IMG/VR virus record: IMGVR_UViG_3300030106_003389
Coordinates: 1-32,832 of that record
Length of the DNA: 32,832 bases
Reading direction: 5' to 3' (one strand)
Source: a virus
Shown: positions 2,299 to 32,832 of the stretch, one piece after another
Layout of the letters: every line of letters begins with the position of its first letter
Position numbering within the stretch: the first letter of the stretch is position 1
The notes under the pieces: generated by a model
The model's input: only the letters and a program-made list of their open reading frames with translations
What the model was told of the DNA's origin: nothing
The model's database searches: none
Made by a program: the position numbers and the translations under genes

Positions 2299-2873
2299 TG
2301 GCTTTAGTAATTAAAGGATCAAGTTCAGGACAAGTTACTGTTGATGTTCCAGCAAGTGCTGGTACAAACACTCTTACTTTACCAGCAGAATCAGGAAATA
2401 TTTTAACAAATGATACATCAGGCACAATATTGCAAGTCGTATCAACGACCAAGACCGATACGTTTTCCACGACTTCCACATCAATGACAGACTTAACAGG
2501 TATGTCTGTTGCAATAACACCTAGCTCAACATCCAACAAAATATTAATTACAGGAAATATTTTCGTATCAGGGAGTTCAGCAAGTGCGTTAGTGGTCTTT
2601 AATTTAGTTAGGGGATCTACGAATATATCTATATCGACAGGATCAGGTAGTACAGATTCTACTACATTTTGTGATACAGACGGTATGCACTTGAATGAAA
2701 ATTCCACTTATAGTCAAAATCTTAACTTTTTAGATAGCCCATCATCAACTTCATCAACAACTTATAAATTACAAATGAAAGTTACACAGGGTACAGGTTT
2801 TATTAATCGCAGAGGATTGAATGATAATGTCAGAGCAGTATCATCAATTACAGCAATGGAAGTAGTAGCATGA
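2298..2873 (+). CDS. Fibre-tip / collar-domain structural protein
   Basis: The 191-residue protein opens with [20 protein letters not shown], a short adaptor repeat common in marine phage fibres (TLTLPAESGNIL at about 31-42). It continues into the same beta-rich domain as 155-760: LQVVSTTKTDTFSTTS, SVAITPSSTSNKIL, FLDSPSSTSSTTYKL, ending ITAMEVVA. I chose ATG 2298, coupled to the upstream stop, over the in-frame TTG just before it. It is a divergent tip paralogue with a different N-terminal adaptor from 155-760, so it may attach at another site. Confidence 0.7.
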   Translation: MALVIKGSSSGQVTVDVPASAGTNTLTLPAESGNILTNDTSGTILQVVSTTKTDTFSTTSTSMTDLTGMSVAITPSSTSNKILITGNIFVSGSSASALVVFNLVRGSTNISISTGSGSTDSTTFCDTDGMHLNENSTYSQNLNFLDSPSSTSSTTYKLQMKVTQGTGFINRRGLNDNVRAVSSITAMEVVA

Positions 2874-3199
2874 TAGATAGAGCAATACTAAAAATAAATC
2901 CTAATGCAAAATTTTCAGTCAATGCAGATGACATTGACCAAATAACATGGCTAGATGACACAACACCTATATCTAAGTCTGATATACAGGCACAACTTAG
3001 TTCAGTCGAATTAGATATAGCATTAGATACTTTACGAGCAAAAAGAAATAAACTACTAGCAGAAACAGATTATCTAGCACTGTCTGATTTAACAATGTCA
3101 GATGATATAAAAACATATAGACAAGAATTAAGAGATTTAACCAATGGTCTAGATACAGTAGAAAAAGTTAATGCCGTAACATTTCCAACTAAACCATAA
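2870..3199 (+). CDS. Tail assembly chaperone-like protein, copy 2
   Basis: This is a 109-residue paralogue of 757-1092. It has the same core (LRAKRNKLLAETDYLALSDL ... TYRQELRDL) and the same ending VNAVTFPTKP. The ATG overlaps the stop of the tip protein (ATGA), and its own stop overlaps the next ATG (TAATG). The Phage_tail_APC-like assignment rests on the RNxLLxxTDY and YRQELRDL motifs. The N-terminal 50 residues differ more than the rest, as expected if they contact different tip proteins. Confidence 0.7.
   Translation: MIDRAILKINPNAKFSVNADDIDQITWLDDTTPISKSDIQAQLSSVELDIALDTLRAKRNKLLAETDYLALSDLTMSDDIKTYRQELRDLTNGLDTVEKVNAVTFPTKP
3095..3196 (+). repeat. Direct repeat, right copy
   Basis: Partner of 982-1083, at the end of the second chaperone-like gene, same orientation and same protein ending. 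Differences are mostly at third codon positions. Confidence 0.85.
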
Positions 3200-3363
3200 T
3201 GAGAACAGTAACTAATTCACAAATACTTGAAAAGCTAGAATCTCTGGAAGACAGGATCACAAAGCTAGAAGAAACCATTAATAAAGGCAAAGGCGCAATA
3301 TCATTCATGGCATGGCTAGGTGGTATAGCAGCGATAGTAGGAGGCTATTTCGTAAGCAAATGA
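3199..3363 (+). CDS. Small coiled-coil/TM protein, XhlA-like (possible lysis factor)
   Basis: The 54-residue protein is coupled to the previous gene by TAATG and to the next by ATGA. Residues 8-30 form a short charged coiled coil (ILEKLESLEDRITKLEETIN). Residues 35-52 are a single hydrophobic segment (SFMAWLGGIAAIVGGYFV) with a final SK. A coiled coil followed by a C-terminal membrane segment is the layout of XhlA-type proteins, which act with a holin. It sits directly before a holin-like gene. The assignment rests on architecture and position only. Confidence 0.6.
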   Translation: MRTVTNSQILEKLESLEDRITKLEETINKGKGAISFMAWLGGIAAIVGGYFVSK

Positions 3364-3794
3364 TACCTATGGAATTATTAAGCATGTTAGCTAGTACTGT
3401 GCTAGGTGGCATATTATCAATCATGGCGCAGAAGTCACAAGCTGAAGCTGAAAAACAAAAGATGTTTATGCAACGAGCTGAGTTTTCAGCTAAACAAATA
3501 GACAAAGCAAGGAATGTAACAGATCAATTTACAAAAAATACTAGGCGTTGGATTGCCCTAATTGCAGTTGTAGCTATATTGGTTATACCAAAACTTGCAC
3601 CATTTATAGACCCTAGTATGCCTATCTATGTAGGATACACAGAAACTGTATCACAAGGATTTTGGATATTTGCTAGTGATATGGACATGACACAATGGAA
3701 ACCAATGACAGGTCTAGTCATAACACCGCTTGATACTCATGTCGTATCATCGATTATTGGCTTATATTTCGGAGGTAGCCTAGTAAGAAAATGA
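3360..3794 (+). CDS. Holin-like three-TM membrane protein
   Basis: I chose ATG 3360, overlapping the upstream stop; the longer frame from 3312 would lie inside the previous gene. The 144 residues have hydrophobic stretches at about 3-21 (PMELLSMLASTVLGGILSIM), 66-84 (WIALIAVVAILVIPKLAPF) and 127-141 (SSIIGLYFGGSLV). An amphipathic charged region lies between the first two. The layout resembles the three-TM holin family found in phages and gene-transfer agents. Holin function is inferred from layout and from its place in a membrane-gene cluster. Confidence 0.55.
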   Translation: MIPMELLSMLASTVLGGILSIMAQKSQAEAEKQKMFMQRAEFSAKQIDKARNVTDQFTKNTRRWIALIAVVAILVIPKLAPFIDPSMPIYVGYTETVSQGFWIFASDMDMTQWKPMTGLVITPLDTHVVSSIIGLYFGGSLVRK

Positions 3795-3821: not shown

Positions 3822-3908
3822 ATGAACCCTGAGTTATGCACAACAAACTATGTAGTCCTAGTTTTTTGTCTGTTGCTAATTTTATATATCGTTTTTAAGG
3901 ATGACTAA
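3822..3908 (+). CDS. 28-residue single-TM peptide
   Basis: A short frame, MNPELCTTNYVVLVFCLLLI then LYIVFKDD, is preceded by AGAGG 6 bases before the ATG. Its stop overlaps the next start (TAATG). It is one hydrophobic segment with a short polar N-terminus and a charged C-terminus. Such micro-proteins occur in phage lysis regions. It fills the only gap in this cluster, which supports reality, but size makes the call uncertain. Confidence 0.45.
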   Translation: MNPELCTTNYVVLVFCLLLILYIVFKDD

Positions 3909-4540
3909 TGATAATGAAACTCAGACACATAGCTGGTGCAATTCTTGTTATGCTCTTTTTTATAATGCTGCTTGGAATAGAACAGTCATTGGGCGACAGC
4001 ACTAACAGCGGGCAGACAACCTCTACCCAAAGTAATACTAGTGGGAGTAACACTCACATTTCGGGAGGATATTCACAAGAATCTACTACGACATACCAAT
4101 CTGGAAGCAGTAGCAATACAACCAGCACCACAAATAATTCAACTAGCAATGCTGCATCTCGCCAACCTGTGTCAACAGCATCAGCCCCATCAATGCAAAC
4201 ATACTCACAGCGCTCATGTATTATCGGCCTGACAGGAGGGTTCTCTATCATAGGGTTCAGCGGATCGCTTGGCTCCTATGTACATGACGAACATTGCCAG
4301 CGCATAGCTGACTCGACCATGCTCTCTCAGCTTGGTTTAAAGATTGCTGCGATTGCACGTATGTGTGAAGATGAAAAAGTGTTTGAATCTTTACTGCAAT
4401 CAGGAACACCTTGTCCCATTTTGCATGAAGGTAAAAGTTTGATAGGAGCAGAGGCAATGAAGGTTATCTTAGACAGAAGAAAACCAGAGAACGAGAAGAT
4501 AGAGCAGTACAGAAAATACAAAGAGAGTTTAAGAAAATGA
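3908..4540 (+). CDS. Exported or membrane-anchored protein with Ser/Thr/Asn-rich linker, unknown
   Basis: The 210-residue protein starts at ATG 3908 (AAGGA 6 bases upstream). Residues 1-28 are a basic start plus a hydrophobic stretch (HIAGAILVMLFFIMLLG), either a signal peptide or an anchor. Residues 30-100 are a low-complexity Ser/Thr/Asn/Gln linker. Residues 103-160 form a small domain with four cysteines (SCIIGLTGG, EHCQRI, RMCEDE, GTPCPIL), which could form disulfides in the periplasm. The C-terminus is a charged helix. I do not recognise the family. Position suggests an envelope-associated role, possibly lysis. Confidence 0.6.
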   Translation: MIMKLRHIAGAILVMLFFIMLLGIEQSLGDSTNSGQTTSTQSNTSGSNTHISGGYSQESTTTYQSGSSSNTTSTTNNSTSNAASRQPVSTASAPSMQTYSQRSCIIGLTGGFSIIGFSGSLGSYVHDEHCQRIADSTMLSQLGLKIAAIARMCEDEKVFESLLQSGTPCPILHEGKSLIGAEAMKVILDRRKPENEKIEQYRKYKESLRK

Positions 4541-5979
4541 AATACCTGGCCTTGTTGTTGATACCGATTAGTTTGTTTGCAGAAGTAAAAACTACAGGGA
4601 ATCTTATTGTAAATCCAGGGTTCAATGACGGTACAAACGGATGGACTTTATCAGGTGATGCACAAAGAATAGGAGATTGTTGTCCAGGAGGACACGACCT
4701 AGAGTTTGGAGACTATGGCAGTATTGAGCAATCGTTTAATCTCATAAATGACTCCGTAACCCAATCGATGCTTAATAATGGTATTACTCTAGACTCTACG
4801 GTTGAAGTACAAAATGGTGAGGGTGGTGTTGGATCTTGGGCGCCTAATCGTGGTGGTGCTGATACATTTACCATTAGATTACAAATACAAGATGAAAATA
4901 ATGAAGTGTTAGCAACAGTTACACAGGAGCGTTCTAATGTTACAGGAATTAATGGCAAAGATTTTAGCGACAGTCTTACGTACACAGGGCCTGATAGTAA
5001 TATTGGAAATATTTTTATTAGTGGCTCTGATGCTAATGCTCCTGCTAATCTGGGTGGTCCTAACGTAGACAACATATCCGTTACCATGACATATGATGAT
5101 ACTGTACTTTCCGTTACAGAATCAGCAATCATAGCCACAGCGTTTGAAGAAATAGAAGAGATAATAGAATTAGCAGAAGAATTTATTCCAGAGGCTATCG
5201 AAGAAATATTTATCGAAGCCGTTGAGATACAAGAGATTCCCCTTGAGATATTGCCTGAAATAATAGAGGTGGTTGAAATACAAGAGGAAGTACAAGAACA
5301 AATAATCGAGGAGGCATTAGTCCTAAATTTATATGAAGAACCACAGACCGAGCAACAAGTCACAACAGAAATCGAAAGCCAAGAAGAACTCGTTGAAGCA
5401 GGAGAAAGTCTTAACAACGAGGCAGAAAGCGAAGAAATTATCGTTGCAGAAGAATCAGAGATTACAAGAGAAGAACCAGCAACCACAGAGCCAACAGGAG
5501 GTGAGCCTGAGCCTGAACCAGGAAGCAATACAGCAGAGGAACCAGAGCCAGGAGAAAGCACAGAGCTTGCATCCTCCGAAGTCCCTGGAGAGTCAGCCTC
5601 AGAAGAGCGAGGATCTGAAACAGAATCCCCTAGCCTTGGCAATATCGACATTGAAGAGGTGGCTAAACAGGTTGCTGAAAAGATAGAATCGGCAGAGAAA
5701 CAAATGCAGATAACACAAGCTATCGTAGCTAAGGCCATGATAGACAACGATAAGGTTGCTGTATTTACTAACAATCAAACAGACTTCTTTGAAGGACAAA
5801 GAGAGTTTGATGGAGGAGACTACTATGAAACAAGACAATATATTGATGATAGAAATCTATATGCTCAGAATCAAAATGTTTATGATGATGTTGTTGCACA
5901 ATATCAAAAAAACCTTCAAGATAAGATAGACAATAGAATCAGAGCAGAAGAACATTTGAGGAGGATACGTGGATTTTAA
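4537..5979 (+). CDS. Secreted acidic protein with carbohydrate-binding-like domain, unknown
   Basis: The 480-residue protein overlaps the previous gene by ATGA. Residues 1-15 (MKYLALLLIPISLFA, then EV) look like a Sec signal peptide. Residues 20-190 form a predicted beta-sandwich opening NLIVNPGFNDGTNGWTLSG, a pattern typical of carbohydrate-binding-type modules. Residues 200-275 are rich in Glu/Ile in a helix-like pattern. Residues 280-375 are an extremely acidic Glu/Pro/Ser/Thr region, probably disordered. The C-terminus (375-480) is helical and Gln/Asp-rich. Export, cargo and function are inferred or unknown; an envelope-facing or extracellular role is likely. Confidence 0.6.
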   Translation: MKYLALLLIPISLFAEVKTTGNLIVNPGFNDGTNGWTLSGDAQRIGDCCPGGHDLEFGDYGSIEQSFNLINDSVTQSMLNNGITLDSTVEVQNGEGGVGSWAPNRGGADTFTIRLQIQDENNEVLATVTQERSNVTGINGKDFSDSLTYTGPDSNIGNIFISGSDANAPANLGGPNVDNISVTMTYDDTVLSVTESAIIATAFEEIEEIIELAEEFIPEAIEEIFIEAVEIQEIPLEILPEIIEVVEIQEEVQEQIIEEALVLNLYEEPQTEQQVTTEIESQEELVEAGESLNNEAESEEIIVAEESEITREEPATTEPTGGEPEPEPGSNTAEEPEPGESTELASSEVPGESASEERGSETESPSLGNIDIEEVAKQVAEKIESAEKQMQITQAIVAKAMIDNDKVAVFTNNQTDFFEGQREFDGGDYYETRQYIDDRNLYAQNQNVYDDVVAQYQKNLQDKIDNRIRAEEHLRRIRGF

Positions 5980-6205
5980 AGACATAAAAACATGGGGCGT
6001 GCTGCTATCAATCATCGGCGCATTAGGAGGAGGCTTCGCCAAGTTTGGTGAAATAAGCAATAGACTTGCCGTAGTGGAACAGAAGTCAGCGCCAGATATC
6101 AAACCGTTGGAGCAAGACATTGCTATCAATAAAGCAGAGATAGCCGTACTGAAGGCAAAGATGGATGAGGTGAAAGCTCGTTCAGATAATCCTTTGACAA
6201 GATAA
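5969..6205 (+). CDS. Small TM / coiled-coil protein
   Basis: The start is GTG 5969, preceded by a strong GAGGAGG inside the end of the previous gene; no better ATG is available. The 78 residues comprise a short hydrophobic segment at 8-25 (TWGVLLSIIGALGGGFAKFG) and a heptad-like charged helix to the end (LEQDIAINKAEIAVLKAKMD). It resembles small membrane proteins of phage lysis cassettes but lacks a diagnostic motif. It ends 3 bases before the convergent nuclease gene. Confidence 0.55.
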   Translation: MDFKDIKTWGVLLSIIGALGGGFAKFGEISNRLAVVEQKSAPDIKPLEQDIAINKAEIAVLKAKMDEVKARSDNPLTR

Positions 6206-30140: not shown

Positions 30141-31951
30141 TGGCTACATTTGCAATAAACGAGACGGCCAGAAGAACCCAGTTTACATCGACTGGACAAA
30201 CCTCTTATGCATTTAACTTTCAGGTCAATGCTACTTCTGAAGTAGAGGTATTTAAAAACGACACTCTACAGACTCTAAGTACTCACTATTCTGTAAGTCT
30301 AAATACAGACGGAACAGGAACGGTATCATTTATAGATAACTCTGGGTCAGGCGGTACTAATCATACCCCATCAAATGGAGACATAATTACAATCATCGGT
30401 GATTTAGCTCTCTCACGAACAACCGTTTTCAGCACAGCAGCTGCTATTACAACAACAAACTTAGACACAGAATTTGACAACGTTGTCATGAGACAACAAC
30501 AAATTAAAGAGATAACAGATAGGTCTATACAGCTAAAACCAAGCACACCAAGGACTGTTACAGGCTCAGGGACGAGCGGTCCTCTTCATTTTCCTTATGA
30601 TGGGACAGCTTCAAACAATGCTAATAGAATTGTAAAGTTTGACAGTAACGGCACAGCTTTAGAGCTAGGATCAACGACTACAAATATTGATACCTTGGCG
30701 GGCGTAAGCACAGAGATTGGTTTATTAGGAAACTCTACGACTGTGGCAAACATGGGTTTACTAGGGACTTCTACCGTTGTTGCTGATATGGCGCTACTTG
30801 CCAATAGCGACGTTATCGCTGATATGGCTTTACTAGCAACGACTGATGTCATAGCTGACATGAATACTTTAGCTACCTCTGATATAGTTTCAGATTTAAA
30901 TACGTTAGCAACTAGCGATATTGTATCAGATCTTAACACCCTAGCTACATCTGACATAGTGTCCGATATCAACACCTTGGCTACATCTGATGTGGTATCT
31001 GATCTTAACACATTGGCAACGAGTGACATTGTGTCTGATATCAATACTTTGGCTACAAGCGACATAGTTTCAGATCTTAATACTTTAGCTACATCAGATT
31101 TTGTTTCAGATTTAAACACTATTGCTACATCTGATAACGTATCAAATATAGCAACCGTTGCTTCTAATGTGGCTGGAGTCAATAGTTTTGCAGAAAGATA
31201 TAGGGTTGCATCTTCTGATCCATCTAGCTCGTTAGACGCTGGTGACTTAGCATTCAACACATCATCGAACACTCTCAAGTTTTATAATGGATCGGCCTGG
31301 ATATCAATATCTGATACAGCTGCCCAAGTAACAGTAGCAGATGAATCATCAGATACCTCTTGTAACGTGCTGTTTACAACGGCTGCTACAGGAGATCTTG
31401 CACCAAAATCAGGGACCAACCTAACATTTAACTCAAGCTCTGGGGTGCTTACAGCTACAGGATTTGCAGGTGATTTAACAGGTAACGTTACAGGAAATGT
31501 TACTGGATCCTCTGGATCATGTACTGGAAATGCAGCAGGACTATCGTCTACACTAGCAGTAAGTAGCGGTGGTACTGGTGCAACCTCACTTACTGCAAAT
31601 GGAGTATTGATTGGTAATGGAACATCGGCAGTTACTGCTGTTGATATGTCTACCAAAGGAAGTCTATTAGCAGGTGATGGATCTGGAAATCCATCAACAC
31701 TTGGAGTGGGTACAAATAACTTTGTACTTACAGCAGATAGCAGCGAAGCAACAGGATTAAAGTGGGCGGCAGCGGCAGCAGCGGGAGCAACAGGAGCAGG
31801 GGGAGATGAGGTGTTTGTTGAAAACGAAAGAGTTGTTACAACAAGCTATACTCTATCTACCAACAAATCTGCTATGTGTGTTGGACCACTTACATTAAAC
31901 ACAGGGGTTACAGTAACAATCCCATCAGGAGAGAGGTTAGTTATACTATGA
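30140..31951 (+). CDS. T7 gp17-type tail fibre with repeat shaft
   Basis: The 603-residue fibre has a T7 tail-fibre N-terminal domain: FAINETARRTQFTSTGQTSY at 4-23, SYAFNFQVNATSEVEVFKND and ITTTNLDTEFDNVVMRQQQI near 100-120, which docks on the nozzle. Residues about 190-340 are twelve 12-residue repeats (NTLATSDIVSDL type) that would form a helical or triple-stranded shaft. The C-terminal part has SSGGTGATSLTANGVLIGNG and ends GERLVIL, the junction shared with the fragment at 1-158. ATG overlaps the previous stop (TAATG); the stop overlaps the next gene. Confidence 0.85.
   Translation: MATFAINETARRTQFTSTGQTSYAFNFQVNATSEVEVFKNDTLQTLSTHYSVSLNTDGTGTVSFIDNSGSGGTNHTPSNGDIITIIGDLALSRTTVFSTAAAITTTNLDTEFDNVVMRQQQIKEITDRSIQLKPSTPRTVTGSGTSGPLHFPYDGTASNNANRIVKFDSNGTALELGSTTTNIDTLAGVSTEIGLLGNSTTVANMGLLGTSTVVADMALLANSDVIADMALLATTDVIADMNTLATSDIVSDLNTLATSDIVSDLNTLATSDIVSDINTLATSDVVSDLNTLATSDIVSDINTLATSDIVSDLNTLATSDFVSDLNTIATSDNVSNIATVASNVAGVNSFAERYRVASSDPSSSLDAGDLAFNTSSNTLKFYNGSAWISISDTAAQVTVADESSDTSCNVLFTTAATGDLAPKSGTNLTFNSSSGVLTATGFAGDLTGNVTGNVTGSSGSCTGNAAGLSSTLAVSSGGTGATSLTANGVLIGNGTSAVTAVDMSTKGSLLAGDGSGNPSTLGVGTNNFVLTADSSEATGLKWAAAAAAGATGAGGDEVFVENERVVTTSYTLSTNKSAMCVGPLTLNTGVTVTIPSGERLVIL
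30718..31155 (+). repeat. 36-base in-frame repeats in the fibre shaft
   Basis: About twelve tandem 36-base units encode GLLGTSTVVADM, ALLATTDVIADM and then NTLATSDIVSDL-type repeats, ending NTIATSDNVSNI. The middle units are near-identical in protein while third codon positions vary. The unit count could change by recombination or slippage, altering fibre length. Confidence 0.85.
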
Positions 31952-31952
31952 C
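31898..31952 (+). repeat. Fibre-tip junction repeat, right copy
   Basis: Identical over 55 bases to 105-159. It spans the end of the complete tail fibre gene and the ATGA start of the S74 tip gene. Confidence 0.9.
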
Positions 31953-32832
31953 AGTTAAGATTAATGCAGATACATCAGACGGATTAAAAATAGTATCAGA
32001 TACAAGTGGCACAGTAGACGTACAGTCAAACGGCACAACCAAAATGAGTGTTACATCTACTGATATTACTGCACCTGAAGGTGTAAATATCAAAATGCAC
32101 GGCTCGTCTTCAGCAGGTACACTAGCAGGATTATGGCTAAGAGATTTACCTAGAGTTACTAACGATACAAGTACATTTGAGCACACTTACATAAACTCAA
32201 ATAATTCTATTATATTTACCAAAGGCAGTAGTGCTACAACATCAAGCAATACAGAATATTTTAGATTAGACAGCAGTGGTAAATTATATTCAGGTTCAGA
32301 TACACCTTGGCTACTAGGAAGTGGTGGCTCTTTGGCAGTATCTTTAGGTCAGGGTAGTTTTCCTTTTACTGCTGCAAATCCAAGTAATGTGGTTGGAATA
32401 TTTAACAGAATGACTACTACAGGAACAGTAGTTGAAATAAAATATAATGCTGCTGTAGTTGGCTCGATTTCAACGAATGGTAGCAGTACGACTTACAACA
32501 CATCATCAGATTATAGATTGAAAGAGAATGTTGAATACACATTTGATGCAACTACAGAAGTAAAAAAATTAAAACCTTGTAAGTTTAATTTTATAGGCAC
32601 ATCAGAAACGATAGAGGGTTTCGTAGCACATGAGCTTTCAGAGGTCGTTCCTTTAGCAGTAACAGGAACAAAAGATGCTACAAAAGAGGAAGATGTGTTT
32701 GATGATGAGGGAGTAAAAACAGGAACAAAAACAGTACCTGACTATCAAGGTATAGATCAAAGCAAACTCGTACCTTTATTAGTCAAAACAATACAAGAAT
32801 TAGAAGCTAGGATTACAGCATTGGAGAGTAAA
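31948..32832 (+). CDS. Fibre tip with Peptidase_S74 autoprocessing chaperone (3' end outside window)
   Basis: An open frame of 295 codons from ATG 31948 reaches the window edge without a stop. Residues 1-35 (MTVKINADTSDGLKIVSDTS ...) match the adaptor of 155-760. A beta-rich tip region follows. The C-terminal part has NTSSDYRLKENVEYTF at about 187-202 and GFVAHELSEVVPL at about 226-238, the Ser/Asp/Lys and His signature of the S74 intramolecular chaperone. That domain helps a trimer fold and then cuts itself off before the Ser. The sequence ends IQELEARITALESK, so only a few residues are probably missing. Confidence 0.85.
   Translation, partial: MTVKINADTSDGLKIVSDTSGTVDVQSNGTTKMSVTSTDITAPEGVNIKMHGSSSAGTLAGLWLRDLPRVTNDTSTFEHTYINSNNSIIFTKGSSATTSSNTEYFRLDSSGKLYSGSDTPWLLGSGGSLAVSLGQGSFPFTAANPSNVVGIFNRMTTTGTVVEIKYNAAVVGSISTNGSSTTYNTSSDYRLKENVEYTFDATTEVKKLKPCKFNFIGTSETIEGFVAHELSEVVPLAVTGTKDATKEEDVFDDEGVKTGTKTVPDYQGIDQSKLVPLLVKTIQELEARITALESK

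Follow-up and report, generated by a model that had tools for sequence, protein, structure and literature searches.

What do two adjacent phage genes encoding exported-type proteins do for the virus that carries them, and do they act alone? The question is raised by IMG/VR record IMGVR_UViG_3300030106_003389, whose 32,832 bases were analysed in full (the window) and which is of podovirus type as judged by profile matches to terminase, Head-tail_con portal, major head protein, tail proteins and internal virion proteins. An earlier note, written from the sequence of the window, had described a 210-aa and a 480-aa ORF of exported type, held to be translationally coupled and to suggest joint action. 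Both ORFs are present as described, with hydrophobic N-termini, and their coupling is borne out by a 4-base overlap, ATGA (4537–4540). They are termed A and B here, and lie in the following layout:

3199..3363, + strand: neighbour X, 54 aa, with a C-terminal transmembrane (TM) segment; not obligate.
3360..3794, + strand: neighbour H, 144 aa, multi-TM, holin-like by topology only, phrog_38283 (function unknown); not obligate.
3822..3908, + strand: a 28-aa hydrophobic peptide, read from the sequence, coupled to the start of A via TAATG.
3908..4540, + strand: gene A, an ORF of 210 aa; likely cleaved signal peptide (1–29), conserved Ser/Thr/Asn-rich segment (30–101), four-cysteine domain (about 102–180) and basic C-terminal tail.
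4537..5979, + strand: gene B, an ORF of 480 aa; signal peptide (about 1–15), carbohydrate-binding-type beta-sandwich (17–187), very acidic stretch (188–370) and helical C-terminal region (371–480).
5969..6205, + strand: gene C, 78 aa with a GTG start; one N-terminal TM segment, coiled-coil-like body and Asn-Pro-Leu near the C-terminus.

The GTG start of C at 5969 lies 11 bases before the end of B and is preceded by AGGAGG. Elsewhere in the window, two similar ORFs of the tail-fibre assembly chaperone type (757–1092 and 2870–3199, the second matching Pfam Phage_tail_APC) each follow a different tail-fibre-like ORF, as if a fibre-plus-chaperone cassette had been duplicated. Similar tail-fibre-like protein starts (NADTSDGLKIVSDTSG) are found at both ends of the record (155–760 and 31876–32832), which could be a nearly complete genome whose break point falls within a repeated fibre region.

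Linkage was counted after removal of duplicate loci (L045, L082 and L083) and of fragment matches in L035 and L121. By HMM, B stood next to A in 111 of 117 distinct A loci, a frequency that argues against chance adjacency and supports joint action of the two proteins. The six others comprised four loci cut at the locus end and two with an unrelated-looking ORF next to A: in L038 a different ORF with a hydrophobic N-terminus, and in L035 a different ORF of uncertain start. Wherever more than 400 bases of room remained after B, C followed (94 of 94 loci), so that a third gene had been missed when two proteins were spoken of. In a C-anchored sample, drawn independently of the A search and leaving out five C loci with too little flank, B lay immediately upstream in 66 of 75 evaluable loci; it lay further upstream in eight of the other nine, and the last (L279) was cut. 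A, B and C are near-obligate partners, and the pair belongs to a conserved, exported, uncharacterised triad that is wider than first stated.

Five inspected loci (L214, L218, L219, L227 and L275) carry a DNA methyltransferase-like ORF between B and C, with the triad retained around the insert. The two upstream neighbours were rejected as obligate parts: X was present in only 20 of the 90 loci with room before A, and among 66 evaluable H-anchored loci (a further 14 with too little flank being left out) A or B stood next to H in 29, while both were absent from 37. An H-like ORF in L127 (Skadi-4, 4001–4432) is labelled peptidase M15 in Skadi phages and has no Pfam match; the label may be wrong.

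Small membrane ORFs can occupy the junction of A and B. A lipoprotein ORF of ~40 aa lies there in 35 of the 111 pairs and a one-TM peptide of 33–42 aa with an NPY[DN]F motif in 34; the two were never found together (0/111), and 42 pairs had neither. Of these 42, 40 (among them the window) have A and B adjoining or almost adjoining, and the remaining two have other ORFs. A peptide resembling the 28-aa hydrophobic one of the window was found between A and B in L003; this type of insertion is absent from the window, where A and B meet directly.

A is seen in hundreds of marine viral contigs and is near-absent from bacterial genomes. A single-sequence search with A returned 24 IMG/VR loci, and a search of IMG/VR with an A alignment gave at least 599 stretches, at least 544 of them confirmed and 80 kept; the bacterial genomes of 84,980 species yielded A matches in only three contigs. 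Two contigs of one Porticoccaceae MAG (MED754; L119 and L120) bear a T4-like block of A, the one-TM peptide, B and C, and are probably phage contigs binned with the MAG. When four A proteins were used in tblastn, 11 phage records were matched in total: the Pelagibacter phages HTVC202P, HTVC033P, HTVC023P, HTVC115P, Baldr and Mosig, the Roseobacter phages CRP-207 and CRP-810, two Manatee Spring contigs and the uncultured phage S28-C10. The pair occurs in podo-, sipho- and myovirus-type pelagiphages, and the triad recurs in many phages whose hosts are abundant bacteria of the ocean; S28-C10 belongs to the Autographiviridae and Mosig to the Kyanoviridae, and a tape measure and minor tail protein L are annotated in HTVC202P. 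Because the tail types of the carriers differ, the pair is no podovirus peculiarity, and the earlier remark that such proteins are unusual for podoviruses fails for marine phages, in which the pair is common.

The N-terminus of A, hydrophobic over residues 7–25 (mean Kyte–Doolittle 2.26), looks like a cleaved signal peptide. As judged heuristically, 107 of the 115 complete A proteins have a small-residue-then-Asp site fitting signal peptidase, the remaining eight sharing the hydrophobic start, and 94 of the 95 complete B proteins begin with a hydrophobic segment, so that the export proposed for both fits their N-termini. Residues 30–101 of A are 78% S/T/N/Q/G. This stretch had been taken for a linker, but of the 21 columns that are invariant in alignment A3, 10 fall in residues 30–69, which makes it the best conserved part of the protein and no spacer. 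The cysteines of A (104, 130, 153 and 169) would fit a periplasmic disulfide domain; four cysteines beyond residue 60 recur in 113 of 115 A proteins. In the model of A (mean pLDDT 62.6), residues 29–101 fall below 50 despite holding much of the conservation, and the cysteine region is better. Neither Foldseek (threshold E 0.001) nor VIA-align (threshold Z 5) matched A to a known structure, which with so weak a model makes no case for a new fold. PDB sequence searches with profiles of A and B found nothing below E 0.06, and weak Pfam matches of window A, such as Mucin (E 0.035), were put down to composition.

B begins MKYLALLLIPISLFAEV, and its model comprises a confident beta-sandwich at residues 17–187 and a helical C-terminal region. 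Residues 188–370 carry a net charge of −55, and the median net charge of B across 93 proteins is −77. For residues 17–187, the best Foldseek match had an E-value of 4.8e-10 and the best solved match was Fbs1 (Z 19.6, rmsd 2.8, 165 aligned); the sugar-binding domains of Fbs1, Fbs2 and FBG3 (Z 16–20) were followed by others, with CBM61 (Z 14.9), CBM16 (Z 13.8) and phage tailspike domains at Z 13–15. Of the two regions that the earlier note had marked out for structure search, that of B thus matched, upholding the carbohydrate-binding-like domain claimed for it, and the cysteine region of A found no fold match. The carbohydrate-binding-type fold of residues 17–187 is thus confidently predicted, and sugar binding by them is putative. 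At the sequence level, CBM_4_9 of Pfam was matched by 5 of 36 B homologues (best E 0.00015), and window B matched no Pfam family above cut-off.

Pairwise identities indicate that the N-domain is exchangeable among otherwise similar B proteins: in 41 of 139 pairs with a C-terminal identity above 70%, N-domain identity was below 35%, as for L049 and L021 (90% and 32%, respectively). The B protein of S28-C10 bears a carbohydrate-binding label, which, according to PMC3909814, is the commonest identifiable annotation in metaviromic islands; what those genes share with B in this comparison is the label. The triad also suggests that exported proteins may be hidden among the phage 'carbohydrate-binding' proteins now interpreted as tail parts for receptor binding.

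C has one N-terminal hydrophobic segment and a coiled-coil-like body. An NPL ending was found in 94 of 95 complete C proteins, the exception, in HTVC115P, being an unrelated TM-coil protein, and N, P and L are the sole invariant columns across 39 C proteins. Five of these 39 match the Rz-like phrog_739 weakly (best E 0.011); that of the window does not.

The placement of A and B in a lysis region, as the earlier note had it, holds in part: lysis genes lie near in some relatives, but no endolysin was recognised in the window with four families (lysozyme, amidase_2, M15_3 and Pesticin), of which the Pesticin search matched nowhere at all and so is uninformative. Lysozyme, amidase_2 and M15_3 also gave nothing above cut-off in 15 IMG/VR relatives of 30–55 kb (G001–G015), and the endolysin of the window and of these relatives may be from another family. 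HTVC033P and HTVC023P each have an endolysin, supported by a Pfam match, about 1 kb or less from the triad; in HTVC202P, HTVC115P and Baldr the endolysin is far away (on the other strand in Baldr), and it is close by in only two of six named triad phages. In CRP-207, CRP-810 (annotation only) and MW202481, a lysozyme stands next to A, and neither B nor C is recognisable. By phmmer, endolysin-like ORFs were found near A in 4 of 117 loci; since all four are source records of the queries, endolysin linkage in the IMG/VR contigs is unsupported. A or B as the endolysin was rejected, as several named A phages have separate endolysins.

The T4-like loci carry an Rz-like pair 0.7–1 kb upstream of the triad, matching phrog_739 (E 1.4e-12) and phrog_812 (E 6.4e-7) in the representatives scanned. 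The triad is therefore not simply a spanin substitute, and the proposal that A and B replace spanins everywhere was rejected. The triad of S28-C10 is flanked by H and TerL; in T7, the region matching this interval holds the holin and Rz/Rz1. A lipoprotein scan, which found two of three positive controls and so may miss some, gave no convincing candidate in the window (a single antisense ORF), HTVC202P, S28-C10 or 94% of HTVC033P, so that no o- or u-spanin is recognisable there; Baldr has one unannotated candidate. In a literature search outside which most subscription journals lay, no paper on the triad was found, nor any account of the means by which phages of SAR11 get through the outer membrane or keep competitors out. 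The triad is not treated in the available portions of PMC10504331, PMC6775973, PMC11288001 and PMC12753301; the last, in that portion, gives no expression timing for any triad phage, and its phage HTVC027P is not among the A matches.

Taken together, A, B and C probably form an exported, glycan-directed envelope complex, which is the better supported part of our interpretation and is common to exit and to receptor masking. We tentatively favour, as a possibility short of a confident assignment, a trans-envelope complex that is anchored on glycans, acts late and functions at exit as a spanin does; membership of a known spanin family is not claimed. The three proteins would be products of one coupled late-gene operon and, as a single exported complex, would act on the host envelope when infection ends. 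According to its predicted topology, C would be anchored in the inner membrane, its coil projecting into the periplasm, where A, once oxidised, would link it to B. B would span the periplasm by its long acidic stretch, its N-domain gripping an outer-membrane or surface glycan; after the endolysin opens the wall, the complex would pull on or destabilise the outer membrane, with the glycan grip in place of, or beside, a lipid anchor. Consistent with such a role in exit are the near-obligate occurrence of the triad in loci of unrelated phage types, the signal peptides, the cysteines, the CBM-type fold with its N-domain exchange, the gene order of S28-C10, the lipoprotein or one-TM ORFs at many A–B junctions, the lack of a recognisable o- or u-spanin in the window, HTVC202P, S28-C10 and 94% of HTVC033P, the endolysins or lysozymes near the triad or A in some phages and the weak Rz-like matches of some C proteins. 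Against it stand the T4-like loci with both triad and Rz-like pair, the frequent distance of the triad from the endolysin, the lack of a recognised endolysin in the window and the phages that have A without recognisable B or C.

The variable glycan domain also fits the masking of receptors, the main rival and a somewhat unlikely explanation in which B would bind the host surface glycan used as receptor, such that other virions could not adsorb (superinfection exclusion) and the phage's own progeny would not stick to debris. Export and the sugar-binding fold of B agree with this, as do N-domain exchange, expected if the target glycan differs among strains, and the metaviromic-island annotation in PMC3909814. 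However, B has no known route across the outer membrane ahead of lysis, A and C would need accounting for, and lysis genes lie near the triad in several phages. Of the options in the earlier note, envelope action or help in lysis is kept, and so is superinfection exclusion. The triad provides three expressible proteins for which the two explanations make opposed predictions, lysis rescue versus an adsorption block. A bolder form of the spanin-like exit complex, which we consider unlikely, is that the triad represents a phage exit machine of a new class, in which three proteins form a trans-envelope complex whose hold on the outer membrane comes from an exchangeable glycan-binding domain rather than a lipid anchor; it would be fitted to the strain-specific surface glycans of SAR11 and shared across unrelated tails.

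It is improbable that A and B serve surface display or aggregation, in which infected cells or debris would acquire an altered surface that might, for instance, gather new hosts, as has been proposed for the curli genes of other pelagiphages. The conserved Ser/Thr/Asn/Gln-rich segment of A would suit such a role, and there is precedent in the curli genes of pelagiphages or related phages (PMC9599517 and PMC9004378, the second proposing a role in lysis timing). However, CsgG was found in 0 of 25 A-bearing records, with control genomes positive, so that a curli link was rejected; window A has no match to Pfam curlin, and triad phages have no known outer-membrane export route. Least probable is that B is a receptor-binding or tail-associated virion protein whose assembly A and C assist: the fold of B is also found in phage tailspikes or fibres (8iqe, 7xyc and 5w6h), the triad follows tail-fibre genes in the window, and carbohydrate-binding proteins are read as serving host recognition in PMC3909814, but tail and receptor-binding proteins are assembled in the cytoplasm without signal peptides, so that the Sec-type N-termini of A and B, with the TM segment of C and the occurrence of the triad with three unrelated tail types, leave a virion part disfavoured.

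How, then, does the spanin-like exit complex compare with known systems? B shares the fold of its residues 17–187 with CBM and galactose-binding-like sandwiches (CBM_4_9, CBM16, CBM61 and the FBA domain of Fbs1), from which it differs in its acidic stretch and conserved helical end. The Llp protein of T5 and Cor are small lipoproteins that block a protein receptor; late receptor blocking by the triad would resemble their action, with a lectin-like domain taking the place of the lipoprotein, whereas B is a large protein that lacks a lipobox and seems directed at glycans. Like the pelagiphage curli genes (PMC9599517 and PMC9004378), the triad encodes exported proteins common to podo- and myovirus-type pelagiphages, but the two have no sequence match. 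As for spanins, the small outer-membrane lipoprotein of an o-spanin is not seen in the window, and the lipobox plus C-terminal TM segment of a u-spanin is found neither in A (lipobox in 0/115 complete proteins) nor in B (0/95), nor convincingly elsewhere in the window. From the two-component spanins (Rz/Rz1; T7 gp18.5/18.7), the triad differs in its two large soluble exported proteins, its glycan-binding-type domain and its co-occurrence with a separate Rz-like pair in T4-like phages; it resembles them in the i-spanin-type layout predicted for C from its sequence (N-terminal TM segment and coil), in the small lipoprotein that some relatives carry in the triad operon and in its gene position in S28-C10.
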